Positions 38,581-64,000 of a stretch of DNA of 64,000 bases are shown piece by piece. Location of the stretch: the NCBI GenBank assembly GCA_026390015.1, contig JAPLGS010000141.1, forward strand, positions 99,071-163,070, read 5' to 3'. Source of the DNA: Chloroflexota bacterium. GTDB taxonomy: Bacteria; Chloroflexota; Anaerolineae; Anaerolineales; Villigracilaceae. The notes under the pieces are model-generated. The model saw only the letters and a list, made by a program, of their open reading frames with translations. It had not been told where the DNA came from and ran no database searches. The position numbers and the translations under genes were made by a program. Position 1 is the first letter of the stretch, and each line of letters begins with the position of its first letter.

Positions 38581-40236
38581 TTACTTTATTAATGCTTTCA
38601 CCTCTTCAAGAAACTCGTCATTTAGAAAATCTCCTTTTTGCATAAGGGATTGGATCTGACCGCCAAGCCGGTTTTTCTCTTCTGCTGTGAGTTCTTTTGC
38701 GGTCGCAACAATAACGGGAATGGTTGCAGTTTCCGGTTTTGCGCGCAGCAATTCTATGACCGTGAAGCCGTCCATTTCCGGCATCATTAGATCGAGGACG
38801 ACAAGATCCGGTAATACGCGTTGGATTAATTCGAGACCTTCTCTGCCGTTTGATGCTTCGAGGATGGTGAAATTCCCTTGCGATTGTAATATGCGGCGGA
38901 TGAGTCGGCGTGCTTCGTCGGTATCTTCCACAATAACAATTTTTGGGAATCGTTCAGGCGCAACCTGCGTCAGGGCTGCAAGTAAGCCTTCCTGTGGAGT
39001 CTCGTCTGCCGATGGGAATTTCACGTCGCGTGACCAATTTTCGCCGAGAATACTCGGGTCTGCCGACATGGTGTGGCCGGTGCAGTTTACTACAACGGTG
39101 TCGCTTGGTTTGATGATGCCCGCGCGAATTAGTTTGAATAACCCGGCAAAAGCAACGCCGGCGGCAGGCTCCGCTGATATCCCTTCCATCTTTGCCAAAA
39201 CGTGCATCGCGCGGAAGGCTTCTTCATCACTTACGCATTCGAAGGAACCGTTTGTGCTGTTTACATAGTCTCGCAGGAATTCGTAAGCGCGGCCAGGATC
39301 ACCGGTTGCGAGGGTTTCGATGCGTGTTTTTGGCGATGTGACAGGTTCCACTTTATCGAGTCCTTTTTTCCAGCTATTGACCATTGGCGCGCAGCCTTCG
39401 GCTTGAATGGGGGCAAACGAAGGAATGTGATTTATCCATCCCATTTGCTTCATTTCGCGGAAACCCTTATAGACTCCAAGGGGACCCATTCCACCGCTGA
39501 TCGCCTGCACATACCAATCAGGGGTTTTCCAGAGGGTACCGTCAGGTGGAGTTCCTTGAACGGATGTTAGTTGTTCTGCGATTTCGAATGCGATGGTTTT
39601 CATCGCCTCAATTGAGGTGATGGTACGAGCGCCCATGTCTTGATACAAGTTGCGTTGGCGGGCAAATTCAGAAGCGACTTGCTTACACTGATCGTATGAT
39701 CCGGTGATCTTGATCACCTGACTTCCGTACAGGGCGATCTCGCGCATTTTTACTGCAGGTACCAGGCTTGTGACGAAAGCCCATAATTTCATCCCTGCGC
39801 GTGAAGCGTAGGCAGAATATGAAATTGCCACATTCCCAGTGGAAGCCGCCACCATTTCGGTAATTCCCGCTTCTTTCAAAGCGGCGATCGTAACCGAAGC
39901 CTGTCGATCTTTGAAAGAAGAAGTCGGCCCCTGACGTTCATCTTTTATATAAATATTGGGGCAGCCCAGCATCAGTCCCAAATTGATCGCTCTTATGAGG
40001 GGCGTCCCTCCTTCGCCAAGTGATAAGCTTACATTAGGTTCGCGTATCGGGAGTAGCTCATGATAGCGCCAGAGACTGGAAGAGCGATTTACCAGTTGAG
40101 ATGGCAGGGTTTTGCCGATAATTTCATAATCGTACACAGCTTCACGCCATTGGCTGCCGCACTTTGGGCACGTGGTGGAGGCTGGGTGATAAGATGTGTT
40201 ATGCCCGCAATCAAGACATTTGATGATAAATGACAC
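38581..40236 (-). CDS. Threonine synthase-like PLP enzyme fused to a response-regulator receiver
   Basis: A 551-residue fusion. Residues 1-30 hold a zinc-ribbon (Cys7, Cys10, Cys23, Cys26). Residues 40-420 are a fold-type II PLP enzyme: LGEGGTPLIRA, PTSSFKDRQA with the PLP Lys109, ASTGNVAISYSAYASRAG, AISGGMGPLGVYKGF and the threonine-synthase-like VNCTGHTMSADPS. Threonine synthase turns O-phosphohomoserine into threonine; other beta-replacement enzymes of this fold are possible. Residues 432-551 are a complete receiver (VIVEDTDEARR, phospho-acceptor Asp482 in VVLDLMMPEMDG, Thr512, Lys534). The start is GTG with AGGAG 9 bases upstream. It directly follows the hybrid kinase gene, 12 bases apart, a likely phosphodonor. 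Confidence 0.9.
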   Translation of the reverse strand: MSFIIKCLDCGHNTSYHPASTTCPKCGSQWREAVYDYEIIGKTLPSQLVNRSSSLWRYHELLPIREPNVSLSLGEGGTPLIRAINLGLMLGCPNIYIKDERQGPTSSFKDRQASVTIAALKEAGITEMVAASTGNVAISYSAYASRAGMKLWAFVTSLVPAVKMREIALYGSQVIKITGSYDQCKQVASEFARQRNLYQDMGARTITSIEAMKTIAFEIAEQLTSVQGTPPDGTLWKTPDWYVQAISGGMGPLGVYKGFREMKQMGWINHIPSFAPIQAEGCAPMVNSWKKGLDKVEPVTSPKTRIETLATGDPGRAYEFLRDYVNSTNGSFECVSDEEAFRAMHVLAKMEGISAEPAAGVAFAGLFKLIRAGIIKPSDTVVVNCTGHTMSADPSILGENWSRDVKFPSADETPQEGLLAALTQVAPERFPKIVIVEDTDEARRLIRRILQSQGNFTILEASNGREGLELIQRVLPDLVVLDLMMPEMDGFTVIELLRAKPETATIPVIVATAKELTAEEKNRLGGQIQSLMQKGDFLNDEFLEEVKALIK

Positions 40237-40248
40237 GATAACAAGCTC

Positions 40249-43158
40249 CTAGTGAATTTTTATTTGTATCCGTTCCAAGGCACTGGCGAGATCATCTTCA
40301 AGGATCGGCTTTACCAGATAATCTATTGCGCCAAGTTCGTATCCTTTTTGCACATCTTCAATGATGCTGCAAATTATGACGGGAATATTATGTGTAATCG
40401 GGTCATTTTTTAAAATAGTCAAAATCTTCCAGCCGTCAGTTCCGGGCATCAAAATATCCAGGGTTACCGCAAAAGGCATAAAATGTTTAACGCGCTCCAA
40501 GGCCTTTGACGGGTCTGTGCATGGGATCACTTGATATCCGCGTGGTTTTAAATAACGCTCATAGAGTTCGATTACATTCGAATCACCATCGATCGAGAGG
40601 ATTATCTTGTTGGTGTTCGGCCGATGATCACTCCCGATTTCATTTCGGAAGAGTGGCAGTGTAAAAGAGAAGGTGCTTCCCTTTCCGATTTCACTCTCAA
40701 CCCAAATCCTTCCGCCATGCATGGTGATCAATTGCTGGCAAATGGAAAGCCCAAGCCCTGTCCCGCCTGTCTTTCGTGTGGGCGAGTCGTCAACTTGTGA
40801 GAATGCCTGGAAGAGTTTTTCCTGATCTTGTTTTGAAATGCCCGGGCCAGTATCTCTTACGCTGACTTTTACTTCGTTACGGCCGGTTGGACCGGCCCTG
40901 AGGCCGACTTCAACGGTGATATCGCCTTCGTCGGTAAATTTGGATGCGTTGGAAAGTAGGTTGATCATTACCTGACGAGCGCGAATCACATCGGCCCGCA
41001 CCGTTGGTAGATTCGGCTCAATAATATGTTTCATTTGTATCGGACGTCCCTTTACCAAACCGCTCATGGTGGAGAGCACACTGTTGACCACATCTGTCAT
41101 GTTCACTTCATCGAAAGTCAACTCCATTTTGCCAGCCTCGATCTTGGCGAGATCAAGGATGTCATTGATGAGCCCAAGCAGATGCTGGCCTGAAGTGTAG
41201 ATGGCGGTTAGGTCCTGTTGTTGTAATTCGGTCACAGGCCCGTCAATGCCTTTTATGATAACTCGCGAAAAACCGATAATGGAATTAAGCGGTGTGCGCA
41301 ATTCATGACTCATATTTGCGAGGAATTGACTTTTTAATCGGTCGATCTCGCGCATTTCCATCACAGCTTGTTGAGAGAGTTCAAAGGAACGGGCGTTATC
41401 AATTGCGACGGCCACTTGGTCCGCAAGCGTTTGAAGAACTACGATCTCATCATCTGTAAATGAATTTTTTGTTTTAGCTTGAACATCAAGGACGCCTATC
41501 ACCCTGCTTCCGATCCTCAATGGGATGGCGGCTTCTGCCTGTGTTTCAGGGAGTAGGGGGTTGTGTTTATGCAATGGCGCGCGCGAGACATTATTTACAA
41601 TCACGGCATAACCTTCAAGCGCCACCTTTCCTACAATAGAATCTAAATTTACTGGTAATGTGTGTTTGTTTTTTTTCATCTCCGCGCCGGCTTCGCCAGT
41701 TGCCTCGCGTAGGGCAACGTTAAAGCCGGTCTCTTCAACGATAAAAATAGCGGCATGATAAAACCCGAATTTTTCATTGACTAGATTTACAGTTCTTGTG
41801 AAAATTGTACTCAAATCAAGCGTAGATGTAACAAGGCGACCGATCTCAGCAGAAGCTGACAAATACGTATTCCGTCTTTGCAGTTCTTCCTCAACATTTT
41901 TGCGGTCGGTAATATCATGGTGAACCGATAGAAATCCGAGGATGTTTCGATTCTTATCCAGAATGGGGCTGTTCGTACCAGCGATGTGTACGAACCTTCC
42001 GTCTTTAGTTTTATTAACCCATTCATTGGTGGCCGGCTTCTTGGATAGCAGGGTGTTCCAAAAATACTTGTATTGTTCCCGCGCCACCAAGCCGGATTTG
42101 AGAATGCGTGGGTTTTGGCCGATAACATCAATTGGTTTGAAACCATATACTGTTTCAAATGCCGAGTTGGCAAATATAATATTGCCGTTGGTGTCTGTCA
42201 TAAAAACCGCGTCACCGGAGGTTTCGATACCCAGCTTAAACCTTGTTAAATCTTCTTCTGCGCGTAAGCGGCCAATAGCAGTTGAGATTGGCGCAAGTGA
42301 CGCCTCCAGCAGGGAAATTTGATTTTGATTAAGAGTTGCCTTTTTATCCATCATATCCACACCCAGGGTCGCAATCACTTCATTGTTATTGGTGATGGGG
42401 AAAATGGCTGTGTAGTTGATTCCCAGACGGCGGAATTCCTCGCGGAGGGTGGGCGGGTTGACGGGATTATTGGAAGAATCTTCTAAAATATAAGGCTTGC
42501 GGGTAGCGACCACGGTCTGGGTGGCCAGGTTTTCTTCAAGAGGAATTCTTAAACCTACTGCGCTCGCCGCATTTACAATTTTGGAATGATCGGCAACCAC
42601 GGTAAAACCTTGCTTATCTTCATCGAGTAATGCGATTGCACCGCGCGCAACTGGGAAGCCCTCTACAATTTCACGGATGACGACTCGCAGTGCCTCTTCC
42701 ATGGTCGTTGAAATGGTCAAGGTGTTGACGACACGGTTAATTAAAGCCAGTTCATTGGCGCGTTCTTTTGATTCCTGGAATAAGCGCGCATTTTCAAGCG
42801 CGAGTGAAAGTTGATCAGTAACCTGTTTTATAAGCAATTCTTCATCAGAGGTCCATTCGCGAGTCTGTCTATCATCCATAACGCGTAAAGTTGACCAGTC
42901 CTGGTCGCCGGTTTGGATATCGACAGAATAGGATGAGGCATTGGTCAGTACGTTTTTCTGTGGCACGCTGCGAGCTTGACGAACCGGCTCAGGTGAAGCG
43001 ACCTGCTCGAGGTTTTGCCGAGCAGGCGCAGTGCTGGTCTGAAGCGCCGTATCTTTATCAAATTTTGGCACGCCCTTCGACCCGGATACAATTCCTTCAG
43101 GCTGGATATCCTTAAAGAATTTGTCAAGCCGTTTGTTTATTTTTGGTTTCTTTGGCAT
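40249..43158 (-). CDS. GAF-PAS-GAF hybrid histidine kinase
   Basis: A 969-residue kinase, cytoplasmic, no membrane helix. Residues 1-75 are a low-complexity linker. Residues 76-130 are the tail of a GAF-like module (REWTSDEELLIKQV...LALENARLFQES) nearly identical in pattern to the receptor proteins of this cluster. Then GAF (135-300), PAS (305-425), GAF (440-595), HisKA (NMSHELRTPLNS, His618), HATPase (INLLSNASKF, DTGPGIS, GGTGLGLSICQQL) and a C-terminal receiver (Asp857/Asp859, phospho-acceptor Asp901, Lys950). It is the only kinase in the 26-kb minus-strand run. Its start lies 35 bases inside the parA gene, so the two are coupled. Confidence 0.92.
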   Translation of the reverse strand: MPKKPKINKRLDKFFKDIQPEGIVSGSKGVPKFDKDTALQTSTAPARQNLEQVASPEPVRQARSVPQKNVLTNASSYSVDIQTGDQDWSTLRVMDDRQTREWTSDEELLIKQVTDQLSLALENARLFQESKERANELALINRVVNTLTISTTMEEALRVVIREIVEGFPVARGAIALLDEDKQGFTVVADHSKIVNAASAVGLRIPLEENLATQTVVATRKPYILEDSSNNPVNPPTLREEFRRLGINYTAIFPITNNNEVIATLGVDMMDKKATLNQNQISLLEASLAPISTAIGRLRAEEDLTRFKLGIETSGDAVFMTDTNGNIIFANSAFETVYGFKPIDVIGQNPRILKSGLVAREQYKYFWNTLLSKKPATNEWVNKTKDGRFVHIAGTNSPILDKNRNILGFLSVHHDITDRKNVEEELQRRNTYLSASAEIGRLVTSTLDLSTIFTRTVNLVNEKFGFYHAAIFIVEETGFNVALREATGEAGAEMKKNKHTLPVNLDSIVGKVALEGYAVIVNNVSRAPLHKHNPLLPETQAEAAIPLRIGSRVIGVLDVQAKTKNSFTDDEIVVLQTLADQVAVAIDNARSFELSQQAVMEMREIDRLKSQFLANMSHELRTPLNSIIGFSRVIIKGIDGPVTELQQQDLTAIYTSGQHLLGLINDILDLAKIEAGKMELTFDEVNMTDVVNSVLSTMSGLVKGRPIQMKHIIEPNLPTVRADVIRARQVMINLLSNASKFTDEGDITVEVGLRAGPTGRNEVKVSVRDTGPGISKQDQEKLFQAFSQVDDSPTRKTGGTGLGLSICQQLITMHGGRIWVESEIGKGSTFSFTLPLFRNEIGSDHRPNTNKIILSIDGDSNVIELYERYLKPRGYQVIPCTDPSKALERVKHFMPFAVTLDILMPGTDGWKILTILKNDPITHNIPVIICSIIEDVQKGYELGAIDYLVKPILEDDLASALERIQIKIH

Positions 43159-43909
43159 ATTCCATTAACTCCTGGGCGAGGACACGATATTGCGTGGAGC
43201 TACGCGCGTTTGGTTTATACAATGTAATGGGCATTCCGGCGATGGGGCTTTCGCGTAATTTTGTATCTACTTCTATGATGGTATTAAAAACACCTTGGCC
43301 GAAAGTAGTGCGGAGCTGCTCGCTGATATTACGATGTGTGCGATTCCTTTTATCTAACATCGTGACCAGGATACGATACGCCAGGGCAGGATTGTCTTCT
43401 TCTCGGATTTTGCGAATGAGAGTCATCATATTACGCAGGGCGTACGCGGAAAAATATTCCGCCTGGGTTGGGATAAGCAGCAGGTCGGCTGCGGTAAGCG
43501 CATTTTTTGTAATGGCGCCAAGTACGGGCGGGCAATCAAAGATGATGTAATCGTATGTCAAGTTCGCGTTTGCGATGGCTTGACGCAGAATAGTGGTGTG
43601 ATTCGTTCGCATCGGAAGAAATTGTTCAGATGCTTCAATGCGCGAACTTGATGGGATGAGATCGAGATGTGCCACGTCAGTTTTTCGGCAGGTGCTTTGT
43701 ATTGAAGCATTATCAAGCAAAACATCACAAGATGTTAACCTGCTTTCACCAGGTTCGAAGCCGAGTGATAAGGTTAAGTTGGCTTGCGCATCCAGATCAA
43801 TCAGTAAGACACTCAGCCCATGGTCTACCAGGGCCGCGCCGAGGGATATTGTGGTGGTGGTTTTTGCCACACCGCCTTTTTCGTTTGATACAGCAATAGT
43901 TATTGGCAT
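43124..43909 (-). CDS. ParA/Soj-family partitioning ATPase
   Basis: A 261-residue Walker-type ATPase. Seen: deviant Walker A NEKGGVAKTTTTISLGAAL with the signature Lys11 and Lys16, LLIDLDAQANLTLSLGFE, FDCPPVLGAITKNAL, and a C-terminal half with LVTMLDKRNRTHRNISEQL. These are ParA/Soj features, not MinD: the C-terminal membrane helix is lacking. No parB or parS gene is adjacent, so it is unlikely to segregate the chromosome; orphan ParAs can position protein clusters such as cytoplasmic chemoreceptors (PpfA) or carboxysomes (McdA). The ATG at 43909 has AGGA upstream; a longer frame to 43966 overlaps the receptor gene. The 3' end overlaps the hybrid kinase start by 35 bases. Confidence 0.88.
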   Translation of the reverse strand: MPITIAVSNEKGGVAKTTTTISLGAALVDHGLSVLLIDLDAQANLTLSLGFEPGESRLTSCDVLLDNASIQSTCRKTDVAHLDLIPSSSRIEASEQFLPMRTNHTTILRQAIANANLTYDYIIFDCPPVLGAITKNALTAADLLLIPTQAEYFSAYALRNMMTLIRKIREEDNPALAYRILVTMLDKRNRTHRNISEQLRTTFGQGVFNTIIEVDTKLRESPIAGMPITLYKPNARSSTQYRVLAQELMEYAKETKNKQTA

Positions 43910-43919
43910 GATTATCCTG

Positions 43920-46900
43920 TTACTTATTTGGTTGAGGTTTGCTTTTTTTTTGCGGAGTGATCTCAATTCGCGTGGCGCCCAGAACGCGTTGTAATTCAGC
44001 CATTGCAGTTTGCATCATTTCCTGTGGATCATTCGTGCTGCGGATCTTGTTGGTTATATCAGAAACGATGCGTTCCCGTGTGGCGCGTGAGGTTGTTTCC
44101 TCGAACAGACGGGCATTTTCAGCGGATAACGCAACACGCTCGGCTACGGCTTTGATCAGATCCATCTGGTCTCTGCTTACCCGTTCAGCTTTTGGAACCT
44201 GCACAGATAATGTGCCGATCGTCTCACCGCGTAAGATGACCGGGACAGATATTTCCTGCCGCTGGTCATTATCAGGCACATTTTGATTTTTTTCAATTTC
44301 AATTTGATCCTTTGATTCAGTCTCATTTATTTGCTGACGAAATACTTCACTTTTATACATGTTCCTGTTTTGAAATTTGATCATGATTTCCGACCCAGGC
44401 ATGGCTCTTTCTAATTCCTCCACCGCCGTCTGCAAAATATCTCTCATATGGATGGATGCGCCAATCTTCCCTGTAACTTCACTGATCGTCTGTTCTTTGA
44501 TCGCCTGACGCTGAGATTCTTGGATCAGGCGGGCATTTTCAAGCGCAAGCGAGAGACGCTCTGAGATCGCTTCAACAAGATTGATCTCGTCACTCGTCCA
44601 TTGGCGGTCAATGTTTGGAGCTTTAATATTCATAACGCCGATAACTTGTCCGCGTAATTTTATTGGAACATTGATGGACGGTTCCTGCGTGCCCCGATTT
44701 GAATTGATGGCTAACATTGTCCCGTGATTCATTGCTTGCATGATCTCGTCCGTTTCCACAGGTGTTGTCAAATTTCTGCCGCCGATCATGTTTTGATGAT
44801 ATCCGATCAGTTCCTCCTCGCGAGTGAATGTAAGCCAACCTTCGTGAACATTTTGTTGATAAAGCGCCTGCGCTTCATTGAGTGCTTGCTGCGTTTGAGA
44901 GAACAAGCGCGCATTTTCGAGCGCAATGGAAATTTGGTCAGCCAAAATACTGAGCGTGTTCGCATCGTTTTGAGTAAAGGCGCCGGGCTGATCACTTTGA
45001 ACATCGAGCACGCCCACGATCTGTTCGCGTAATTTGAGGGGCAATGCCATTTCAGAGCGGGTGGTTGGCAGATCGGGATTATTGAAATAAGCAGGATCCA
45101 ATCCAACATCAAGGGCGATGCGCGGGATGCCATATTTTGCGACAAAGCCCACAATTCCGCTTGTACCGACTTCAAGCCTGTGTCTGCGTGCCAGCATTAT
45201 TTTTCCGCCTTTGCTGTTTGCGGCTTGTAGCACCGCAAATTGTTTTGTTTCGTTGATCAGGAAAATTCCGGAGTGATAATAGCCGAAACGTTCGCTCACG
45301 AGACGGGTGATCAATGGAAAAAGGATTTCAAGCCTTTGTTCACTGGCTATGATTCTTGATATCTCTCCGATCGCTTGGAGTTTATTGGCTCGAATTTCGC
45401 TTTGCTCACGCGAAAGCTCAAGGTCAGTTGTGCGTTCTAAAACGCGTGATTCCAGGCTATTTACGGTTTGATTTAACTCTTCCGCCATGCGATTAAAGGA
45501 ATCTGAAAGAGCGCCGATCTCATCTTCTGTTATTGCTGTTGCACGGGCGGTGAGCTCTCCCGCTGTTATTTTTTCGGCAACTTTGGCAAGCGAAATAAGA
45601 GGTGATGTCAGAAATTGTGATGCTAAAAAGCCGGTCCCAATACTAAAAATTATCAATCCCATAGAGATCAAAATATTCGTTCTATTTTGCTCTGATATCG
45701 GTTCTAAATACACACTCGTAGATTGGCGGATTATTGCGACCCAGGGTTGTGTCTTCAGCAACGCTCCGGTGTTGATGGTGTTAGTTGCAAGAGTATCTGA
45801 ATAAGCTTCAAAAAAAGATTGCTGTTGTAAATTGTTGATGCCTGCAACAAGCTCATCATTTATTCCTTTCAGTGCATCTTCTCTCGCGCCAGAAAGCAGA
45901 CTGCCTTCCAATTGCAAATTATTTAATTCCAAATTATTGAAATTATTGAATGATTTTAATAATTCATCCCGGCTGCCGGTATCGCCGACCCGCAAAAAGG
46001 TTCTTGAGTCTGCCAGTAAAATAACGACATCCGAGTTTCCGGTATCAATGGATCGAATTATGGATTGTAAAACGATCGCGTAATATTCCACTCGCAAGAC
46101 CCCAAGGGTAGTGCCGCTTTCTCCTTTAATTGGCGAACTGAAGTATATAAACGCCTCGTGGTCATGAAAAACTACATTCGAGGCGAAAGGTAACCCTGTC
46201 TCAAGTACCTGTTTAAAATAAGTTTGTTCCCTTTCGTTTTGACCATTGTGATCCTCGAAAGTGTCGAGGATGTTTACTCCGTTTTCATTTAACACCGCAA
46301 TGGAATGAATGAATATTGGGTCTTTGCGTAGCAGGGAGAGCAGCACAAGGCGGGCATTTTTTTCTTCGATACTATTGGCACGTAATTGTGTTGACAGGCC
46401 TAAAAAGGAAACCAAAGGAAGCTGTTTTGAATCTGCGCGGATGGCATCCAGATGCGTGGTCATAAAACCGTCAATATTACCAGCGACGATTTTTGCGATC
46501 GTGAGTAATTGGGCTTTGTTTTGGATCTGAAGGCTTTGGGACGAGGATCTGGAATTGAACAATCCAAGCGCAGCCACAGGGATAATGGTGACAAAGAAAA
46601 ATGCAATGATGATCTTTGTTCTAAGTATATATGAGTTGAAGCGTCGTAAAATGAAGGCGGTATAGATGACCGATATAACAAGAACGATCAAATTTGTTGC
46701 AGTGGGATTGGTAGGCAAGCCAGTATCTGGCAGGAACATATCTGTGAGCGTAATAAGAATGGCAATGATAAAAATACCGATTATTACGCGTGTGTTCCGC
46801 GCGGGCGGAAGCGTTGCAGATGAGATCCCGCCCACAACGATGGCGATCACGATCCCGAGAGCAAGGCTTTGTCCATGGACTATAAATGGAATCGTAAGCG

Positions 46901-47168
46901 CTATCACAAATATCGTTCCAATTAAGATTGAGATTCCCAACGTTGAGCGGGCACGACTGCTCAGGTAGACGCTTATAAATGCCATAATCGCAATTGTGCC
47001 CGTGATGCCTAACCCAATTAAACCTCTTATGCCATTATCGGTATACCCGATATAGCCGGTGATCACAGCCAATGCTGCGAATAAGAATCCTGTGATCATA
47101 CTGATCGTCAGTATATTTTTACGACGGAATTCTTCCTGTTTTATGGCTTGATCGGACAGGTTAATCAT
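43920..47168 (-). CDS. Kinase-less receptor: membrane domain, Cache, HAMP, three GAF modules
   Basis: A 1082-residue membrane receptor with no output enzyme. About residues 20-190 hold six helices; a further helix near 195-212 leads to a dCache-like extracellular domain (215-505, NIDGFMTTHLDAIR) and a last helix (508-528). Then HAMP (EKITAGELTARATAITEDEIGALSDSF), coiled coil, a complete GAF with FGYYHSGIFLINE...YFNNPDLPTTRSEMALPL, a half-GAF (WLTFTREEELIGY ... PIKLRGQVIGVMNIK), and a further GAF starting with ILQTAVEELERAM that here is completed (SVPVILRGETIGTLSVQV), before a final repeated stub (ITNKIRSTNDPQEMMQTAM). It is the longest member with an intact third GAF. Next to parA, 10 bases away. 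Confidence 0.85.
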   Translation of the reverse strand: MINLSDQAIKQEEFRRKNILTISMITGFLFAALAVITGYIGYTDNGIRGLIGLGITGTIAIMAFISVYLSSRARSTLGISILIGTIFVIALTIPFIVHGQSLALGIVIAIVVGGISSATLPPARNTRVIIGIFIIAILITLTDMFLPDTGLPTNPTATNLIVLVISVIYTAFILRRFNSYILRTKIIIAFFFVTIIPVAALGLFNSRSSSQSLQIQNKAQLLTIAKIVAGNIDGFMTTHLDAIRADSKQLPLVSFLGLSTQLRANSIEEKNARLVLLSLLRKDPIFIHSIAVLNENGVNILDTFEDHNGQNEREQTYFKQVLETGLPFASNVVFHDHEAFIYFSSPIKGESGTTLGVLRVEYYAIVLQSIIRSIDTGNSDVVILLADSRTFLRVGDTGSRDELLKSFNNFNNLELNNLQLEGSLLSGAREDALKGINDELVAGINNLQQQSFFEAYSDTLATNTINTGALLKTQPWVAIIRQSTSVYLEPISEQNRTNILISMGLIIFSIGTGFLASQFLTSPLISLAKVAEKITAGELTARATAITEDEIGALSDSFNRMAEELNQTVNSLESRVLERTTDLELSREQSEIRANKLQAIGEISRIIASEQRLEILFPLITRLVSERFGYYHSGIFLINETKQFAVLQAANSKGGKIMLARRHRLEVGTSGIVGFVAKYGIPRIALDVGLDPAYFNNPDLPTTRSEMALPLKLREQIVGVLDVQSDQPGAFTQNDANTLSILADQISIALENARLFSQTQQALNEAQALYQQNVHEGWLTFTREEELIGYHQNMIGGRNLTTPVETDEIMQAMNHGTMLAINSNRGTQEPSINVPIKLRGQVIGVMNIKAPNIDRQWTSDEINLVEAISERLSLALENARLIQESQRQAIKEQTISEVTGKIGASIHMRDILQTAVEELERAMPGSEIMIKFQNRNMYKSEVFRQQINETESKDQIEIEKNQNVPDNDQRQEISVPVILRGETIGTLSVQVPKAERVSRDQMDLIKAVAERVALSAENARLFEETTSRATRERIVSDITNKIRSTNDPQEMMQTAMAELQRVLGATRIEITPQKKSKPQPNK

Positions 47169-51272: not shown

Positions 51273-51309
51273 TGCGTATACCTCGGAATTTTTCTTTTCC
51301 TTTGAGTGA

Positions 51310-53669: not shown

Positions 53670-55394
53670 TTATTTCGCTGATTCTTCATTTTCGCGAGTC
53701 GTTCCTAACTGGATGAATGAGCGTGATGAGCCCAACGCCAACCCAAGTTCGTGAATGGTAGTTTGCAGGATACGATCAAAATCAGTCGATGCTCCAATTT
53801 GAGTTGTGACTCGAGCGATGGTTTCTTCCTGTTCAGCTCGGCGATTGGTTTCTTCAAAGAGGCGGGCGTTCTCAAGTGCGAATCCTGCTCGATCTGAAAT
53901 GGACTGCACCATGATAATTTCGTCGTCCGTCCATTTCCTTTTTTCTTCGACCGCTTGTATATGAATGATGCCGATTATTTGATCACGGAATTTAACGGGA
54001 ACCGCCAGCGTGGAAGGATTACCTATCGAAGGTTGGGCAATAAATTGGGTCTCACCAGATGCGAGGGCTTTTTCCAGCGTCGGGCTGTTTGATGGGAGGA
54101 CTGTTGAAATAGTCCCATCTGGAAGGTAATGATACCCATCCTGTTTTGGCTTGCGGTAAGAAGATTTATTGGCTTTTTGATTTGGATGATGGGTGTCTTC
54201 TTTTGCAAGATCCTTATTAATAATTGCGATCTGATTGGCAATGGTTTCAAGGACATTCACATCATCTGCTTTGAACGCGGAAGGCTGGGTGCTTTGAACG
54301 TCCAATACCCCGATTATTGTTTTGCCATATTTAATCGGCAGAGTAATTTCTGAACGGGTTTTTGGGAGATCGGGATTATTAAAGAAAAACATATCCGAGC
54401 CGGTTTCGAGCGCGATGCGTACGCGACCGCTTTGAGAAACATAACCAACGATGCCAGCTCCCCCAACTTTAAATTGATGGTGGTTCGCAAGCATGTGTTG
54501 CCCGCCTTCACTGTTGGCGGCGCGTAATACTGCATATTCATGGGTTTCATCAAGCAGGAAAATGCCAACGTGATAAGCTTCCATTTTTTCACTGATGGAT
54601 CGAGTGATTCGCGTCAATAATTCGGCTGATTGCAGCTCTACGTTTGCTGATATCTCCTGCGAGATATCAGCAATAACCTGCAGACGCATCGCGCGTTCCT
54701 GAATTTGTTGATAAGCAGCGTCAAGTGCATGAGTGCGTTCTTCAACATGCTTTTCCAGGTTCGTTTTAATTTCCTGCAATTCTTGGTTGACCGCGCGGGT
54801 CTCTTCCAAGCGAAAATTTTCAAGGTATGAACGAAAGATAACCGCAATGTACAGAATGAAGCCTGTAAAAAATACAACACCGCTTGCTTCAATAATATCG
54901 TTTTCTGAAATTGGAACTCTTGAATAATAGGAAGCTAATGCTGTCATTATGGTTGCATAGATCGCAAGCGTGGCAAAGGTGCGTTGACCTGTCAGCGTGC
55001 TTGCAACGATCAACGAGATCGGTACAAGCGCAAGCACAGATGTTAGATAAACCGCTGCCAAACCGAGAAATAATGAAAGATATGCAATAGAGATAACTCC
55101 GAGGGAAAAAATAAAAGTTCCAACTCTTGGAAATTTTGATTTGCCAAAAAGATATGAAATAATAGACACACCCAGCAGGAAGTCGATGATGATGGCAGGC
55201 TGTAGGCTGGCGATCAAACCCGCTCCCAATGCAATTATCAGCAGCAAAGCAATACCATTAAGCAATTGAGCACGTCGAGCAAATCCTGATTCTTGCAGCG
55301 TTGGATTCGGAGCAATTAAATTCTGAAGAATGTGATTGACCCTTGCCAACAGAGTTAGATTTTCAGTATCGTTGGGTGTTCGTGGTGTCGACAT
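53670..55394 (-). CDS. Kinase-less receptor: six-helix membrane domain plus GAF modules
   Basis: A 574-residue protein with about six membrane helices in residues 45-200, coiled coil 200-245, full GAF 255-395 (AYHVGIFLLDETHEYAVL, MFFFNNPDLPKTRSEITLPI), half-GAF 420-510 (DGYHYLPDGTISTV ... VPVKFRDQIIGIIHIQ, WTDDEIIMVQSISDRAGFALE) and the truncated GAF start (VTTQIGASTDFDRILQTTIHEL). The membrane part resembles that of the 48181 gene in layout but not closely in sequence, suggesting exchange or fast change of the sensor half. No output domain follows. Confidence 0.82.
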   Translation of the reverse strand: MSTPRTPNDTENLTLLARVNHILQNLIAPNPTLQESGFARRAQLLNGIALLLIIALGAGLIASLQPAIIIDFLLGVSIISYLFGKSKFPRVGTFIFSLGVISIAYLSLFLGLAAVYLTSVLALVPISLIVASTLTGQRTFATLAIYATIMTALASYYSRVPISENDIIEASGVVFFTGFILYIAVIFRSYLENFRLEETRAVNQELQEIKTNLEKHVEERTHALDAAYQQIQERAMRLQVIADISQEISANVELQSAELLTRITRSISEKMEAYHVGIFLLDETHEYAVLRAANSEGGQHMLANHHQFKVGGAGIVGYVSQSGRVRIALETGSDMFFFNNPDLPKTRSEITLPIKYGKTIIGVLDVQSTQPSAFKADDVNVLETIANQIAIINKDLAKEDTHHPNQKANKSSYRKPKQDGYHYLPDGTISTVLPSNSPTLEKALASGETQFIAQPSIGNPSTLAVPVKFRDQIIGIIHIQAVEEKRKWTDDEIIMVQSISDRAGFALENARLFEETNRRAEQEETIARVTTQIGASTDFDRILQTTIHELGLALGSSRSFIQLGTTRENEESAK

Positions 55395-55396
55395 GA

Positions 55397-56872
55397 TTAC
55401 TCTCTTACCTTTCTGGATGGATCAGGATTTGCGCCCCTGCCAGACTGACCATCAGCCTGTTTCTGCCCATTGAGTTGGTCCAGCAACTGAAAAGTGACGG
55501 CCGCGTTTCCGATAGTAAGCCCAAGCTCCCGGACAGTCTCCCGCAGAATAGTATCCACATTTGAAAACGCGCTGATCCGAGCTGAAATATTCGATACTAA
55601 AGATTCGCGGGCAGCGCGTTGTTGCGACTCATTGTATAGTCTGGCACTTTCCAAAGCAGCGCTTAACTGCTCCGATAACGCGATCGCTAGATTGGTCTCG
55701 TCTTGCGTCCAAGCTTCAGATATATCATTCTTTTTCAATCGAATTGCGCCAATAATCAACCCTCGCACTTTGATGGGAACGCTAATGGTAAGGTTATCGT
55801 TCCCGATAATAATATCACCGGTTTCGACAGCTTTTGTGATGCTTGGATCTAGAAATTCAGAATAAATTTGCACTGTCGTTGGCGACGTGGCAAGAAAACT
55901 TGTGTGCGGTTGATTTCGAAGAATCTTCCCCCAAGCCTCTCGACTAACTTCCCCATAAACCAGTTTGGAAGCTTCAAGTGCTTTTTCGATCTCACTAAAC
56001 AAATTTACATTTTGGATGGCAACCGCGAGTTGTTCCGCCAGGATTTGAAGAGTTGCTATATCTTCTTCAGAGAAAGCCAGCGATTCTTTGCTTTGCACAT
56101 CCAATGCGCCCAGGATTTGCCCGCCTGCCACTAGTGGCAGAGACATTTCAGAGCGTGTTTCTGGCAAGTCGGGATTATTAAAGTAAAACGCATCCGTACC
56201 AACATCCAACGCGATCCGGGCTTTTATATTTTCAGTAACGTAGCCCACAATGCCCATTTCACCAACTTTAAGTTGGTGATTCCTTTCCAGCATGCGTTGC
56301 CCGCCTGCACTATTTGCGGCGGCGAGCACCGCGTACTCTTTTCGCTCATCAAGAATAAAAATGCCAACATGATAATAGCCAAAATTTTCGTGAATAAGAT
56401 ATGTTGTTTGTTGTAAAAGTTCTGAGAGTTTTCGGTAGGAAGTTATCCCTCTGCCAACTTCCGCCACAGCTTTTAGCAAGTTGCTGCGATGCTCGATTTC
56501 GCGAGTACGTTCGTTCACGCGTTCCTCGAGGTTTAGTTGATATTTTATAAGTTCCTGTTCACGAGCATTTAATTCCTGATTGCTTCTTAAAAGCAGTTCC
56601 TGTTTTCGACCCGCGTAGCTGGCAAATAAACCGAGGAACACCGGCGCGCTGTCAATTATCCACAGAAGAGGATCTGTTCGTTGTATATTAAAAACAGCAG
56701 TAATATCTTGTGGTTGGTGAGAACCTGCTAATCTTAAAAGAGTTCCAATGATAGGGAATAAAAAACCAAATAGCACGCCGACCAAAGCGTACCGTTGTGT
56801 TTCACCGATTTGGATAAAAGCTGGTTTCTTACTCACGGATTTATATTCTCTCGGGTTTTGGGTGTGTATCAT
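55397..56872 (-). CDS. Kinase-less receptor: two-helix form plus GAF modules
   Basis: A 491-residue protein, sister of the 49917 gene: N-terminal RYALVGVLFGFLFPIIGTL and LLWIIDSAPVFLGLFASYAG match that protein's two helices. Coiled coil 90-135, full GAF 150-300 (FGYYHVGIFILDERKEYAVL, YFNNPDLPETRSEMSLPL), half-GAF 315-420 (REAWGKILRNQPHTSF ... SVPIKVRGLIIGAIRL), truncated GAF start (ISARISAFSNVDTILRETVREL) and a polar C-terminal tail rich in Gly and Asp, not seen in the others. No output domain. Confidence 0.82.
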   Translation of the reverse strand: MIHTQNPREYKSVSKKPAFIQIGETQRYALVGVLFGFLFPIIGTLLRLAGSHQPQDITAVFNIQRTDPLLWIIDSAPVFLGLFASYAGRKQELLLRSNQELNAREQELIKYQLNLEERVNERTREIEHRSNLLKAVAEVGRGITSYRKLSELLQQTTYLIHENFGYYHVGIFILDERKEYAVLAAANSAGGQRMLERNHQLKVGEMGIVGYVTENIKARIALDVGTDAFYFNNPDLPETRSEMSLPLVAGGQILGALDVQSKESLAFSEEDIATLQILAEQLAVAIQNVNLFSEIEKALEASKLVYGEVSREAWGKILRNQPHTSFLATSPTTVQIYSEFLDPSITKAVETGDIIIGNDNLTISVPIKVRGLIIGAIRLKKNDISEAWTQDETNLAIALSEQLSAALESARLYNESQQRAARESLVSNISARISAFSNVDTILRETVRELGLTIGNAAVTFQLLDQLNGQKQADGQSGRGANPDPSRKVRE

Positions 56873-56875
56873 TAA

Positions 56876-58552
56876 TTACTTTGTTCGTATTGAACTGGTT
56901 TTTTTTCTGACGGGTAATCCATCTGTTTGATTGGATCCAATGCTGATCTCAACTTCTTTTAGATCGAATACTCTGCGCAGTTCGGTAGTAGCTGTGCGGA
57001 TAACAGATTCGACATCCAACGTTTCGCGGACGCGGGTTGAAATATTCGCGATCATTTGATCTCGTAACGAGTTTTTTTGCGCTTCTTCTACCAGGCGACT
57101 ATTTTCCAAAGCCAGCGCCACCTGGTGGGCGATTTTTTCCACCAGACCACGCTCACGTGTAGACCATTCTGTCACTGCACCTTTTCTTACTAAATTTATA
57201 GTGCCAATTTTTTGCCCATACAATAATAACGGCACACGCAATCCATCCTTTATGTTCTTTTTGTCAAAAGAAAAAATAGGTCGTACCCCCGCAGGTGTAT
57301 ATTGATAGGCTGGTTTCTGGCGGCTGGTAAACTTGGACCAGGTCTTTTGGGCTTGGAACGACGAGTTGGTTTCCAATTCATTAACCAGATTATTCGATAG
57401 GTTCATGAGACGCACATTATCATAGGAGATGGCGATCAGATCGCATAGTGTTTTAAGGATTTCGGTATCTGAAGGTAAAAACGCTTTCGGTTGATCAGAG
57501 TGCAAATCAAAAACACCAATCACTTCACCGCGGACAGTGAAAGGCACTACCATTCGAGAGCGGGTGAGCGGGAAGTGGTTTTCATGGAAAAAATTTGTAT
57601 CCTCTGTATCTGATGAGATTATGGGACGGTTTTGTTGTATGACTAGATTTATCACGTTTCGATGGTCTGGCTCCACGCGAAATCCTTGACCGATAAGTTG
57701 TTTTCCTGTTGAAGAGGATGCCGCCTGAAGGAATGCGGTTTTTTTCTGTTCATCTAATATGTATAATCCAACATGATAGTAGCCAAATTGTTCCGACGTA
57801 AGCCGTGCCGCAGTTTCGATCAAGGTGGGAATGTCTTGAATCTCAGAGATAAAATTTGACACCTTGGCTGAAGTACGTAATTGTATTGTTTGCATATTTA
57901 ATTCTTCGGTACGTTCTCTGACTCTGTCTTCGAGTTGCGAGTGTTCTATTAATAAAGTTTGAAGAGTATTTTGCGTTTGGCTGACAACCCGAAAAAATGC
58001 CTCTTTAAACTGGCTTATTGCGATAATAAGGATTACGCCGGGGACGGAAAAATAAAGAATGTACCCGATCCAATCCGCAGGCGTTGGGGCAGGCAGATTA
58101 CGTAACGGAAGTTGATATAGGCCAAGTTGTTGCGAGGTCGCGATTGCAACGGTTGTTAATATGCATGCAGCAAGAATGTAGATATCAACATGGCGGTCAA
58201 ATAACAGAGAGGCTAAAGCCGCGCAGGTTATAAAAAATATACCCCCGCCAAGCCATGGACCCCATCCCAGGATCGAGTTCGTGCCGATGGTGTAAATTAT
58301 AAGAAGCAGCAGGGCGGCGCGCGTCGAATATTGTGCAGGTACTATTGTGATCAGTGTAATTGCTAGTAAAACACTGATAAATAAAATACGGTCATTGAGC
58401 GACGTGGTTGCCCAATTGAAAAGAATTATCGCTGCCCCCAATACACATGCAATGCGTAGCGCAATCAAGATAAAAGCGTCGCGCCATTTTTTATCGTTGA
58501 AATAAACCGATTTTGCTTCGATTGAAGATGAAGATGAAAAATTGCTATTCAT
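56876..58552 (-). CDS. Kinase-less receptor: multi-helix membrane domain plus GAF modules
   Basis: A 558-residue protein with about six membrane helices in residues 28-190, coiled coil to about 230, full GAF 240-385 (FGYYHVGLYILDEQKKTAFL, but with HFPLTRSRMVVPF instead of the usual P-E-T-R-S-E), half-GAF 400-490 (QKTWSKFTSRQKPAYQYTPAG ... RVPLLLYGQKIGTINL) and truncated GAF start (ISTRVRETLDVESVIRTATTEL). The more diverged first GAF may mean a different ligand. Its start overlaps the neighbouring gene's stop by 8 bases. No output domain. Confidence 0.81.
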   Translation of the reverse strand: MNSNFSSSSSIEAKSVYFNDKKWRDAFILIALRIACVLGAAIILFNWATTSLNDRILFISVLLAITLITIVPAQYSTRAALLLLIIYTIGTNSILGWGPWLGGGIFFITCAALASLLFDRHVDIYILAACILTTVAIATSQQLGLYQLPLRNLPAPTPADWIGYILYFSVPGVILIIAISQFKEAFFRVVSQTQNTLQTLLIEHSQLEDRVRERTEELNMQTIQLRTSAKVSNFISEIQDIPTLIETAARLTSEQFGYYHVGLYILDEQKKTAFLQAASSSTGKQLIGQGFRVEPDHRNVINLVIQQNRPIISSDTEDTNFFHENHFPLTRSRMVVPFTVRGEVIGVFDLHSDQPKAFLPSDTEILKTLCDLIAISYDNVRLMNLSNNLVNELETNSSFQAQKTWSKFTSRQKPAYQYTPAGVRPIFSFDKKNIKDGLRVPLLLYGQKIGTINLVRKGAVTEWSTRERGLVEKIAHQVALALENSRLVEEAQKNSLRDQMIANISTRVRETLDVESVIRTATTELRRVFDLKEVEISIGSNQTDGLPVRKKTSSIRTK

Positions 58553-60134
58553 TGTCTTCTTCCATTGAAACTTCGATCACTACTTCGGCCGCTTCAAGTG
58601 TTCGTCCCAACTCTCTTACGGTAGTTTGAAGAATACTTTCCATGTTTGTAGAAGCCCATATCTTTGCGATAAGCTCATTTGCCAGTCTTTCGCGTGCAGC
58701 AACCGACTGGCTTTCCTCCACCAATCGGGCGTTTTCCAATGCCAGCGTAGCTTGTGCCGTAATCGATTCGATCAGATTTTTTTGTTCAGGGGTCCAGTCG
58801 GATGAATTTTCTAAATGGATCATCCCGATGGTCTGATCTCGCAGAAGTAAAGAAATTTCCAAGTCCTTTGTGTTTGTTTGATTATTATCTCCGAGCGAGT
58901 ATTCTAAATTTTGTTCTTTTGTCAACGATGACCACGACCCTTGAAGATATTGCCTCTGCATAGCGCGCATTTCAGTGAGGCTTTGTTGGGATTCTCGAAA
59001 TAGGTGTGAGTTTTCTAGCGCAATCGCAATTTCATTTGTCATGCTTTGGAAGGTTCCCACTTCTTGCTGCGTGAACGCATTTGATTTTGTTGAATGCATT
59101 TCCAGCGCGCCTAATACCTTCTCTCCGGCGATAAGAGGAAGAACGATTTGGGAGCGGCTATAGGGCAGCAAAGGAGTGTCCGGCCGGATGAATTCGTTCG
59201 AATTATCTTGTGCAACGTGAGCTATCTTAGTACGAATGGATTTGCCTACCGCGCTTCTGCCATTCACATCGAGGCGGTGTCTGTTCTCGCGCAGGATTCG
59301 CCCGGCTTCTCCGGTAGCCTCTTTCAGCTCAGCCCATTGTTCGGTAGAGTCGAGTAAGAAAAAGGCTATGTAATAATATTCAAATTCAAGCGCGATTAGA
59401 TGTGCGGCGCGCCGAAGTAATTCGTCCGGCTCTAAAATAGCTGTGACCGCCCGTCCAATCTGATTTACTTTATCCAATTGACGGGTTCGGTCAGAAACTG
59501 TCAACTCGAGGTTGTCGCGCTCAATCTTAAGCATATTCAAGGTTGTATCAATTTGATTTTGTGCTTTAAGGAATTCTGCTTCCAGCCGTTGAAAGACCGC
59601 GATAATCACTGTCCCGAACAGGCTGATTACTAAACCTGCGCTTAGCCAGTCTGAGATACTCGCTGGGGCTGCCTTCGGATTAAGCGGTACGAATTGAGCA
59701 GTTAACATCAACCAGCCAAATAAAATGAAAGTGATTATATTAATAATTAATGCGGCCATGCCGATTTTTGGAGAGAGAAGCATTGTCGAAAAAACGATCA
59801 GCCCAAGAAAGAAAAATAGGCTATTGCCCAAAATACCATTTGTACTTAACTCGCTCAGGCTTATCACATAAATACCAAGTATAACGACACTCATTCGTGT
59901 GAGATATGAAAAACGGACAACCGTCACAACCCCTGTAATTACGAATATTGTAATAATAATTATATTAATAACCATGCTGTGAGAAGCGCTAAGTGTTGGG
60001 ATAAGTGCAATGCCTCCAAATACAAGCATGCTGATAAGCAAAGGGATTGAAAATTGCTCGCGCCAGCTTTTATAAAATTGACGGGTTGCTTCCTCTGGGA
60101 TTGATGTCCGATCGCGGGATGAAATATTTTTCAT
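58545..60134 (-). CDS. Kinase-less receptor: multi-helix membrane domain plus GAF modules
   Basis: A 529-residue protein with about six helices in residues 30-190, coiled coil, full GAF 230-375 (FEYYYIAFFLLDSTEQWAEL ... TPLLPYSRSQIVLPL), a short half-GAF 390-470 (QGSWSSLTKEQNLEY ... SLLLRDQTIGMIHLE) and truncated GAF start (IAKIWASTNMESILQTTVREL). The first GAF is again diverged, with a VGKSIRTKIAHVAQDNS loop replacing the GIVG..RIALDVG pattern. Overlaps the next gene by 8 bases and follows the edge gene by 5, so the run is translationally tight. No output domain. Confidence 0.81.
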   Translation of the reverse strand: MKNISSRDRTSIPEEATRQFYKSWREQFSIPLLISMLVFGGIALIPTLSASHSMVINIIIITIFVITGVVTVVRFSYLTRMSVVILGIYVISLSELSTNGILGNSLFFFLGLIVFSTMLLSPKIGMAALIINIITFILFGWLMLTAQFVPLNPKAAPASISDWLSAGLVISLFGTVIIAVFQRLEAEFLKAQNQIDTTLNMLKIERDNLELTVSDRTRQLDKVNQIGRAVTAILEPDELLRRAAHLIALEFEYYYIAFFLLDSTEQWAELKEATGEAGRILRENRHRLDVNGRSAVGKSIRTKIAHVAQDNSNEFIRPDTPLLPYSRSQIVLPLIAGEKVLGALEMHSTKSNAFTQQEVGTFQSMTNEIAIALENSHLFRESQQSLTEMRAMQRQYLQGSWSSLTKEQNLEYSLGDNNQTNTKDLEISLLLRDQTIGMIHLENSSDWTPEQKNLIESITAQATLALENARLVEESQSVAARERLANELIAKIWASTNMESILQTTVRELGRTLEAAEVVIEVSMEEDNE

Positions 60135-60139
60135 TGTTG

Positions 60140-63100: not shown

Positions 63101-64000
63101 TTCCAACGCTACGCCGGTTTGCATTCCTGGGAACCAGATTAATTGAGCCAGAGCAGCTTCGCCGTCTGGATCTTGGATTTCCAATGCTTCCGGCGTTGAT
63201 TTTCCTGTGAGTATTAAATCTGAGAGTTTTGATGTAATCTTAATTTGCGATGCTGAAGAGCCCATGGCGAGCTCGAATTTTCCAGAACTTATGTTGTTGT
63301 AAATAAATTGATTGTTTGGAAGAATAAAATAAATACTAGCCAGTGTCGAAATGCCGTTTAATGGTTGAATAAGTCTTTGTAAATTTTCTTTTTCTGTGAT
63401 CCCCACAATTGAACCGAGTGAGGAACCGCGCGCGGTTTTGTACTCCGCTATGGTAATAAGAATAAATTGATCTTTATAAATAGGTGCAAGCTCGCTGGCA
63501 GCAATAGATTGAGTCCCTTGCGATCCTTGATTAAAAATGGATGGATTGATTTTTATACCTTGCCAATCTGTATTGCTGGCAATTTTAATATTTCCATTTG
63601 TATCAACCAGAAAGAACTGGTCAAATATCGGAGAATTTTGTTGTGCATTAAGGGTTTGAAAAGCTTTAATAAAATTACCGCGTATTTCGCCAAACTGAGT
63701 GCTTTGCGGGTTGGCATGTAAAGCCAGCTCGATAAGAATTTCGAAATTACTGTCTGTAATCTGAAATTTGAGCAGTGCCTCCTTATTTTTTATTTCTTGA
63801 TCGATGATCTTGAGTTGATTGGTCAGCAGGTTTTGTGATTGGGTAATCGCCTGCTCGGTTAAAAGCGCGCGAGCACGAAAGTATGACACGCCTGCCATTA
63901 AAGCAAGAGGAATAAATGTGAAGATGAGCAGTGTTCTTACAAGCGTACTTGTCAGGCTGCCTTTGAATCTTTTTTGTTGGGTGTTAAGTATGGGCGTCGT
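60140..64000 (-). CDS. Large kinase-less receptor with five GAF domains (5' end outside window)
   Basis: At least 1286 residues; the frame stays open to the right edge, and bases 63899-64000 encode a hydrophobic helix upstream of the first in-window ATG (63898), so that ATG is not the start. Counting from it: extracellular part 20-280, membrane helix near 285-305, HAMP (RFAEGDWSRRAEVLSNDEVGFLANSF), then five GAF domains at about 365-520, 540-690, 700-870, 880-1040 and 1045-1200, ending in the shared truncated GAF start (TSKIRRSTDIQSILMTTANEL). GAF4 has ATGEAGAQMKRAGYKIGVG, nearly the same as in the hybrid kinase GAF. No kinase or other output domain. Confidence 0.85.
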   Translation of the reverse strand, partial: TTPILNTQQKRFKGSLTSTLVRTLLIFTFIPLALMAGVSYFRARALLTEQAITQSQNLLTNQLKIIDQEIKNKEALLKFQITDSNFEILIELALHANPQSTQFGEIRGNFIKAFQTLNAQQNSPIFDQFFLVDTNGNIKIASNTDWQGIKINPSIFNQGSQGTQSIAASELAPIYKDQFILITIAEYKTARGSSLGSIVGITEKENLQRLIQPLNGISTLASIYFILPNNQFIYNNISSGKFELAMGSSASQIKITSKLSDLILTGKSTPEALEIQDPDGEAALAQLIWFPGMQTGVALEVKAIDVYGKISSLAPFTFFLVLGTLIATGLVLIFGINRIIKPLRSLSDITRRFAEGDWSRRAEVLSNDEVGFLANSFNDMADELSGAYRSLEQKVDERTRQIRTAAEVAQSITTISNLDEMLNKTVELLVQQFEFYQASIFLVDRSGKYLEFKTGYGSAAKGLSDKKYSLEVGSATILGWVSANNKPRIASDVLDDPLHLKNELLPETRSEASVPISIGNLVFGILDVQSATAGTFNSAETLVMLQTLASQIAAAIQTKGLVETSQVNFEEIERLYRSSRLLANANNEADILKISGQILKEAPYPIVLFHLNADGGQLEVLSSGESTRAVSLPKYFQIDTEIITDYLFRGAIITTSSRVDVPDSLKNIIEKMDLNGAAFLPVRNREVLVAIIMIGIRKLTLSNTTIQPYANLADLMSISLEKADAIQQTEKHLREVESLASINKLISATLDLQSFFSGLLEKIHQIIGKYNLIVALYDEKSDTVSIPFSYEDEKITSIESFPLGEGLTSILLRTRQPFMLVEDTEKKAAELGVKFVGKPVRSWMGAPMLVQSKLIGALILQDPENERAFDEADLKFFTTITGQVAGVINNIHLLDESQQRALQLETAAEIARDISGSLNLDELLIKAVNFIRGRLNFYHAAVFLRDLSGEFTMIREATGEAGAQMKRAGYKIGVGSKSIVGFVSSRGEQLVVNDTAKDATYYANPLLPDTRAEAAIPLKVGERILGVLDIQSTKPYAFSDDNLRSLQILADQLAVAVVNTELFAETQEHLSQHRLLHHITTTAASGTTLEEALEGAVNGLQVTLGGDRVMIFLADREKKTLVLKASMGYAENASTEPIPFGSGITGWVAAHRRLLRLRDVSEDPRYIQMSSNTRSELAIPLIYRNELLGVLNVESELLDAYTENDEEMLGTLGGSLAAIIANARLLEQIRLQAERERVIYEVTSKIRRSTDIQSILMTTANELTRVTGARYAKIQVKPINDFERKD

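Follow-up and report, generated by a model that had tools for sequence, protein, structure and literature searches.

Stub-tailed GAF receptors may regulate one shared, ParA-positioned hybrid histidine kinase in a multi-input sensory operon of Anaerolineales

Introduction

When many bacterial receptors share one kinase, the textbook example is the chemosensory array. Here we describe an operon-like gene run in a 64,000-base stretch of DNA (bases 99071-163070 of contig C66, hereafter the window) from the 4.3 Mb genome of a Chloroflexota bacterium of the order Anaerolineales. On the minus strand, from the right edge leftwards, nine GAF receptors (with a lipoprotein gene before the ninth) are followed by a ParA-type ATPase, a hybrid histidine kinase, PALP-REC (a threonine-synthase-like enzyme with a receiver domain, REC) and an EamA transporter. 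According to our analysis this is a real and conserved sensory operon, which we class as two-component signalling with pooled receptors, and we propose, with a probability that we would put at roughly 60%, that the receptors, tailed by a stub of a GAF domain, regulate the one shared kinase, which ParA would position, in a multi-input sensory operon of Anaerolineales.

Among chemosensory arrays, those with ParA-type positioning (PpfA-TlpT of Rhodobacter, ParC of Vibrio) likewise combine many receptors, one kinase and a ParA-family ATPase; unlike them, the operon has no methyl-accepting chemotaxis protein (MCP) domain and no CheW, its kinase is a HisKA hybrid kinase, and its receptors end in a GAF stub. 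Plant ethylene receptors, which keep kinase-like domains, resemble the operon's receptors in being GAF-containing membrane receptors and differ by unrelated sensors and a eukaryotic host. They occur in high-molecular-mass complexes, and a peptide binds the GAF domain of ETR1 (PMC2799528, PMC5832771; for these and the other papers cited, statements refer to the excerpts matched). In the RetS-GacS pair one sensor protein blocks the autophosphorylation of another (PMC4866733; also PMC5992135), RetS being itself a hybrid histidine kinase, while the operon's regulators are kinase-less and usually number 9-13. The signalling helix (S-helix) links receptor and effector domains (PMC1592074), whereas in the operon's receptors it runs into a truncated GAF domain and then a stop. 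Partners of cargo-positioning ParA/MinD ATPases share short positively charged N-terminal extensions, the basic N-terminus of TlpT, the suggested PpfA partner, included (PMC7993993, PMC10241942), and the N-terminal domain of PomX is Ala/Pro-rich and likely unstructured (PMC7993993). In contrast to ParB, McdB and PomX, the partner proposed here is a histidine kinase, and in the excerpts of the literature matches listed we noticed no histidine kinase in this role. Among those matches there is also no published description of the operon, and none that names Villigracilis.

Results

Receptors with variable sensors and a constant tail

Domains were called with Pfam (E up to 0.001) on proteins from the list of open reading frames (ORFs) of the window. 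An initial annotation, made from the letters alone, had proposed nine kinase-less GAF receptors on the minus strand, and both the ORF list and Pfam agree: none of the nine matches an output domain, be it HisKA, HATPase, GGDEF, EAL or MCP, and Pfam finds among them no kinase-like regulator of the type that marks multikinase networks. Their sensors are MASE11-like bundles, Cache-HAMP, HAMP alone or short membrane anchors. The usual cytoplasmic order is a coil, a GAF domain, a half-GAF, a signalling helix and the first helix and strand of a further GAF domain, where the protein stops. This design, first ascribed to all nine, holds for eight, Receptor 9 among them with two tail modules, and fails for Receptor 1, which has four full GAF domains, the last one complete and with no half-GAF before the tail; in most contexts of the genus the receptor run begins with a multi-GAF tail protein.

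From 48 contexts (relatives plus the window) we obtained 317 tail-bearing kinase-less proteins, counting only nearly full-length matches of the last tail. The protein stops within 25 residues past the tail in 299 of them, at 26-60 residues in 15 and later in 3. This end point, shared across relatives, excludes frameshift or decay as a general cause of receptors without a kinase, and the receptors are not decayed or frameshifted kinases, the stub being kept across the order and beyond.

Orthologues were taken as reciprocal best hits, found in 15-21 of 21 genus genomes per receptor, and unaligned residues were counted as mismatches. Mean identity is 8-53% for the sensors and 59-78% for the GAF domains, and reaches 68-81% for the half-GAF with its helix in eight receptors and 67-80% for the stub in seven. 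The sensor of Receptor 4 shares 8% with its orthologues as compared with 67-79% for its tail, which suggests that the input part was swapped. For Receptor 9 the tail identity was measured at 0.04-0.05, an artefact, since 20 of 21 relatives align with the first of its tail modules, which ends near residue 936, and the measurement fell on the second. Diverged sensors joined to kept tails are the pattern that would be expected of receptors serving a shared partner.

The second tail module of Receptor 9 aligns only in G008 among the 21 relatives, and most relatives have an extra receptor between the Receptor 9 equivalent and ParA; the module may be what is left of a neighbour that was fused or deleted. 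Solo binding lipoproteins vary as well, with Peripla_BP_6, PBP_like_2 and Bmp types in the operons of G033, G009 and G043 and an SsuA/NMT1 type in the window, where the run holds no transporter genes to go with it (47198-48169). This variety suggests swappable periplasmic ligand adaptors.

The AlphaFold model of Receptor 2 (mean predicted local distance difference test, pLDDT, 84.9; predicted template modelling score, pTM, 0.53) has a GAF fold after about residue 236 and ends with a hairpin over residues 424-442 and two helices, a long one at 449-493 and a short one at 498-513; the final strand does not form. The best 50 of 720 Foldseek matches to this model are GAF-type proteins.

A tail-like module on the hybrid kinase

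In ordinary two-component systems sensor and kinase share one polypeptide; here the nine membrane sensors are kinase-less, and the kinase of the window has no hydrophobic transmembrane segment in a simple scan, yet has GAF and PAS domains of its own. HisKA, HATPase and receiver are all matched by Pfam, and the SHELRTP box and the receiver Asp are visible. A single C-terminal receiver is found in the kinases of the window, G008 and G016, against two in the other 22 of the 25 genus kinases examined.

The receptor module had been said to recur at the N-terminus of the kinase, and model searches and AlphaFold bear this out. In a whole-genome search with a model of the nine tails, these tails and the other module of Receptor 9 score 120-137 bits, the N-terminal module of the kinase, which is outside the model, comes next with 63.9 bits, and all others reach at most 50.9. 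A model from 305 receptors of other genomes, scored on the window, its two flanks and 19 loci (L157-L175), gives 113-143 bits for the tails, 77.2 for the kinase module and at most 69.3 for others. Judged by these scores, the kinase module is the nearest kin of the receptor tail in the genome, by a modest margin.

AlphaFold (7 sequences; mean pLDDT 73.2, pTM 0.57) predicts for the kinase N-terminus a helix at 7-16, disorder over 16-72, a hairpin at 76-94, helices at 104-149 and 153-167, and then a full GAF domain, so modelled modules of receptor end and kinase match in order and length. In L216 and G359 the kinase beside a PALP gene with two receivers has the build of a receptor (dCache-HAMP-GAF-half-GAF or 7TM-GAF-half-GAF), with HisKA replacing the stub. 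With these fused architectures in view, the receptors resemble kinases whose catalytic part was exchanged for a GAF-start stub; the kinase of the window's lineage, we infer, instead lost its membrane sensor and gained a ParA peptide.

A ParB-like peptide beside ParA

The initial annotation, which had recognised the tail-like module, overlooked a ParB-like peptide in front of it that seems to tie the kinase to ParA. The ATPase has a deviant Walker A motif, and among solved structures ParA/Soj proteins are closest to it. A basic, helix-forming peptide opens the kinase (MPKKPKINKRLDKFFKDIQPE in the window); its residues M1, K4, R10, L11 and F15 are invariant in an alignment of 11 kinases, and a proline-rich linker of varying length follows. 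The chromosomal ParB of the genome (Pfam) begins MAQRTGLGKGLESLI, with a similar spacing of the basic residue and the hydrophobics, and the genome has a separate ParA-ParB pair at C16. Pfam finds no ParB domain among the proteins of the run, and no ParB stands beside parA as in ParABS segregation; an adjacent candidate partner with a basic N-terminal peptide, as in ParA/MinD cargo systems, is present. From its sequence, the kinase front end looks like a ParA docking peptide.

The peptide pattern, sought in the first 60 residues of each protein, occurs in 32 of 33 kinases directly after ParA, in none of 24 other kinases and in 4 of 770 other ORFs; these four are two N-terminal pieces of split post-ParA kinases, one ORF without known domain and one receptor of G039. 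In G039 the gene after ParA is this receptor, and it carries the peptide while the kinase does not. Complete kinase frames that lie before PALP-REC and not directly after ParA lack it in all 14 cases (one split piece in G015, the G039 kinase and 12 without ParA in the stretch seen). In a further set of named records, among the matches listed, the pattern is present in 5/5 kinases after ParA and 0/6 before PALP without ParA, and in 1 of 95 other kinases and 1 of 784 other ORFs.

Conservation and distribution

Relatives were sought among 37 genus genomes, the window's own included. We examined 25, chosen for a strong kinase match on a useful contig, and annotated the surroundings of the kinase orthologue with window-derived profiles. 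ParA lies directly before the kinase in 25/25 (for the split kinases of G017 and G015, before the first fragment), with a 35-base overlap between parA and the kinase start in 23 of the 25, and PALP-REC directly after it in 24, G019 stopping at a contig edge. The synteny of receptors with the ParA and hybrid kinase genes, proposed as a check on the grouping, is thus conserved, and loss of the neighbourhood in relatives is not what we find. Receptors number 9-13 in 21 of 23 runs uncut by a contig edge, the lower counts being 4 in G017, with many broken frames, and 1, by the walking rule, in G004, where a stretch of N breaks the series within the 20 kb covered.

In G147, G403 and G206, which belong to other genera of the family, receptors, ParA and PALP-REC are accompanied by a larger kinase. 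Among 16 contexts from other families of the order, ParA lies directly before the kinase in seven (G060, G048, G037, G049, G059, G043, G327) and two genes upstream in G039; five (G051, G056, G042, G054, G055) are cut before that position, and G052 has no such kinase within the stretch. Named records carrying the set include, among the matches listed, Candidatus Villigracilaceae AMX68 (L178), whose kinase N-terminus is nearly identical to that of G032 of the window's genus, and Anaerolineales UBA5796 (L177). The near identity suggests that the window's genome belongs to the Villigracilaceae.

At a strict threshold the tail model matches in at least 31 of 400 genomes of the phylum, the figure being a lower bound since scores fall off for more diverged tails. 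The matches comprise all 11 genomes listed for the genus, 13 of the 14 listed for the remaining genera of its family, 4 of the 11 listed for the remainder of the order, two genomes of other orders in the class and one, G456, of a different class; 349 genomes gave no match and are outside this listing. G456 has a large GAF-receptor cluster on C528 (L289-L291), with proteins of up to 2521 residues. Besides 11 tail proteins without a kinase domain, the cluster includes PALP-REC and a kinase of receptor type, with no ParA in the stretch.

Discussion

The functional coupling of receptors, kinase and ParA is well supported by the conserved order of their genes, by the tail and by the peptide that follows ParA. 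We propose that receptors with exchangeable sensors, a near-constant cytoplasmic end and no output of their own associate with the half-GAF/signalling-helix module at the N-terminus of the soluble hybrid kinase and alter its autophosphorylation. The basic N-terminal peptide and the flexible linker would let the kinase bind ParA, which in turn may place or space kinase-receptor clusters along the cell. Phosphate would flow via the kinase receiver or receivers to PALP-REC and the pair of stand-alone receivers, and the convergent kinases and regulator encoded next to the operon may read the same state. The sequences show the gene set and its order, their conservation, the likeness of the tails and the link between peptide and ParA; physical contact, positioning by ParA and the direction of phosphotransfer are what we infer from this arrangement.

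Several observations speak against the proposal. The lead of the kinase module over other GAF junctions is modest (77 vs 69 bits), and the stub of Receptor 6 is less conserved (38-39%, confirmed by end-to-end alignment). Mean-field covariation over 343-352 receptors, which tells neither for nor against a complementation of split GAF domains, gave no tail-to-hairpin signal, the beta1-beta6 neighbourhood expected of an intact GAF domain being also weak there, and a helix-to-stub signal weakened once the alignment window was narrowed. The peptide pattern was defined after the first set had been viewed and some members of the named set are close relatives, which makes that set a partial check; the kinase of G059 follows ParA and is the sole one there to lack the peptide. 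Only distant kinase matches were found in G001 (97% complete) and G020, two of the other 12 genus genomes, so the system may not be universal within the genus. In G047 and G041, of the same order, receptors, kinase and PALP-REC occur with a different gene in the place of ParA, and ParA-less versions recur in other orders and another class; ParA is thus not needed for the core. The gene preceding the kinase in place of ParA in G047 and also in G187 is a Methyltransf_19 S-adenosyl methyltransferase (L077 1000-1794; L128 13768-14571). Finally, the conserved convergent two-kinase set could be the real partner of some receptors.

The initial annotation had counted only one histidine kinase. This is right for the run on the minus strand; converging on it at 32585-37550, however, are a further two kinases and an OmpR-type regulator, so that a single hybrid kinase is true of the operon and not of its neighbourhood. 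The receptors might therefore act mainly via these convergent kinases (32585-36822), or via several kinases of which the hybrid kinase is one. The three-gene set is kept beside the operon in most relatives tested: 13 of 14 further genus genomes, G147 and G206 carry all of it, and G048 and G327 carry two of its genes. Its GAF-rich kinases offer similar helices. The set is encoded, however, on the opposite strand; in G032, G060 and G403, which keep receptors, ParA and hybrid kinase, the 10-kb stretches beside EamA did not show it, and in other orders the receptors sit directly before the kinase/PALP-REC pair; we consider this explanation rather improbable.

To the same low degree we would credit the receptors with being self-contained homodimers that make no contact with a kinase, the operon serving co-expression only and sensing running through other partners. 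GAF and signalling-helix modules are common and do form homodimers, but the tail is among the best conserved parts of these proteins, its end is near-fixed in 299 of 317, and in the genome beyond the operon no match to it exceeds 51 bits, which together points to a shared partner.

Less probable again is that ParA has no part in the signalling and is a hitchhiker, for instance a segregation gene. Its ParA/Soj kinship and the existence of operon versions without it are in line with such a role; the genome, however, has its own ParA-ParB pair at C16, the kinase peptide tracks ParA adjacency, and the overlap of the two genes is fixed at 35 bases in nearly all genus contexts. A chemotaxis array, or a set of decayed kinases, deserves hardly any credence: HAMP and Cache parts and a ParA neighbour do recall chemoreceptor loci, but the initial annotation was right to set chemotaxis aside, as the locus has no MCP or CheW domain (PF00015 is absent from the nine receptors, the genome's three MCP matches all lie at C112, and of its two CheW-family matches one is at C112 and the other in a long C68 frame, possibly CheA) and the stub is conserved across the order and beyond.

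A more far-reaching reading of the shared-kinase proposal, which we hold tentatively and would not back at even odds, is that this is a second, independently evolved bacterial receptor array, with swappable sensors, a GAF-stub tail and one HisKA hybrid kinase, spaced by ParA through the ParB-like peptide. In a bolder form still, split GAF domains would hold the array together. The stub, which is the front of a GAF domain, would complete the half-GAF, its back, of the kinase or of a neighbouring receptor; Receptor 1, whose last GAF domain is complete, would then only donate and the kinase only accept.

If receptors do share the ParA-positioned kinase, a conserved non-chemosensory alternative would mean that pooling of receptors has arisen at least twice, and the operon would offer a clean test of adding sensors by fusing new inputs onto a constant tail. 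A histidine kinase partner would be a new cargo class for ParA/MinD positioning. In a group of Chloroflexota that has been little studied, the operon would further connect the sensing of the environment with an amino-acid enzyme that bears a receiver.

Locus organisation and candidate outputs

Features of the run and its surroundings are collected in Table 1. Gaps from Receptor 1 to Receptor 8 are +5, -8, +3, +2, +38, -65 (start uncertain) and +17 bases, followed by +11 to the lipoprotein, +29 to Receptor 9, about +10 to ParA, -35 to the kinase and +12 to PALP-REC. No minus-strand terminator-like site with a stem of more than 8 pairs is listed between 44001 and 64000, and, given the small or negative gaps, a single transcript of about 26 kb seems plausible.

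Table 1. Features of the operon and adjoining genes (window coordinates)
Feature	Position	Strand	Remarks
Receptor 1	60140-64006	-	1288 residues; start codon 6 bases past window edge; 2 transmembrane segments, HAMP, four full GAFs, shared tail
Receptor 2	58545-60134	-	MASE11 sensor, coil, GAF, half-GAF, tail (Pfam; AlphaFold); half-GAF and tail ~58545-58865
Receptor 3	56876-58552	-	weak MASE11 match, GAF, half-GAF, tail
Receptor 4	55397-56872	-	short membrane part, GAF, half-GAF, tail
Receptor 5	53670-55394	-	several transmembrane segments, GAF, half-GAF, tail
Receptor 6	51310-53631	-	weak dCache, HAMP, GAF, half-GAF, tail
Receptor 7	49917-51374	-	short membrane part, GAF, half-GAF, tail; start uncertain
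Receptor 8	48181-49899	-	several transmembrane segments, GAF, half-GAF, tail
Solo substrate-binding lipoprotein, NMT1/SsuA type	47198-48169	-	Pfam; lipobox LAGC
Receptor 9	43920-47168	-	8 hydrophobic segments, weak dCache, HAMP, GAF, two half-GAF/tail modules
ParA ATPase	43124-43966	-	KGGVAKT deviant Walker A; likely start ATG at 43909
Putative ParB-like basic N-terminal peptide of kinase (residues 1-21)	43096-43158	-	overlaps parA end
Predicted disordered kinase linker (~residues 22-72)	42943-43095	-	block pLDDT 31-36 over residues 21-70
Kinase module equivalent to receptor tail (predicted)	42658-42933	-	beta-hairpin, 46-residue helix, second helix
Soluble hybrid histidine kinase	40249-43158	-	half-GAF/S-helix, GAF, PAS, GAF, HisKA, HATPase, one REC
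PALP-REC, threonine-synthase-like pyridoxal-phosphate enzyme and receiver with phospho-Asp	38581-40236	-	
EamA transporter, last gene of the run	37595-38542	-	
Likely intrinsic terminator, 17-bp stem	37587-37550	-	after EamA, between two convergent units
Convergent set: GAF-histidine kinase, REC-GAF-histidine kinase, OmpR-type regulator	32585-37550	+	Pfam

Beyond the window edge, where output genes each paired with one receptor might have been met, there are none; the run continues instead with two single-domain receivers (L001 5085-5537 and 5530-6093), upstream of which come a gap and a polyprenyl synthetase. In the 23 uncut runs of the genus both receivers are present in 16 and one in 4, and none was found in 3. 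No DNA-binding output lies inside the operon; as candidate outputs we count PALP-REC, both stand-alone receivers and, beyond the operon, the convergent genes.

PALP-REC as the sole threonine synthase was rejected, the genome having two other full-length ThrC-like matches, and its scores lie under the NCBIfam cut-offs for threonine synthase, which leaves its reaction uncertain. The receiver-fused threonine-synthase-like enzyme matches in 198 of 396 genomes of the class, the weak matches (about 1e-60 to 1e-72) being probably ordinary threonine synthases. A second copy is present in some genomes, and two receivers are found in each of two frames of about 720 residues. No paper on such an enzyme is among the literature matches listed. 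EamA occupies the same place in all 20 further contexts checked. The window also holds a gene for a MinD-like ATPase, then MinE and FtsW/RodA (28500-29551, 29548-30720, plus strand).

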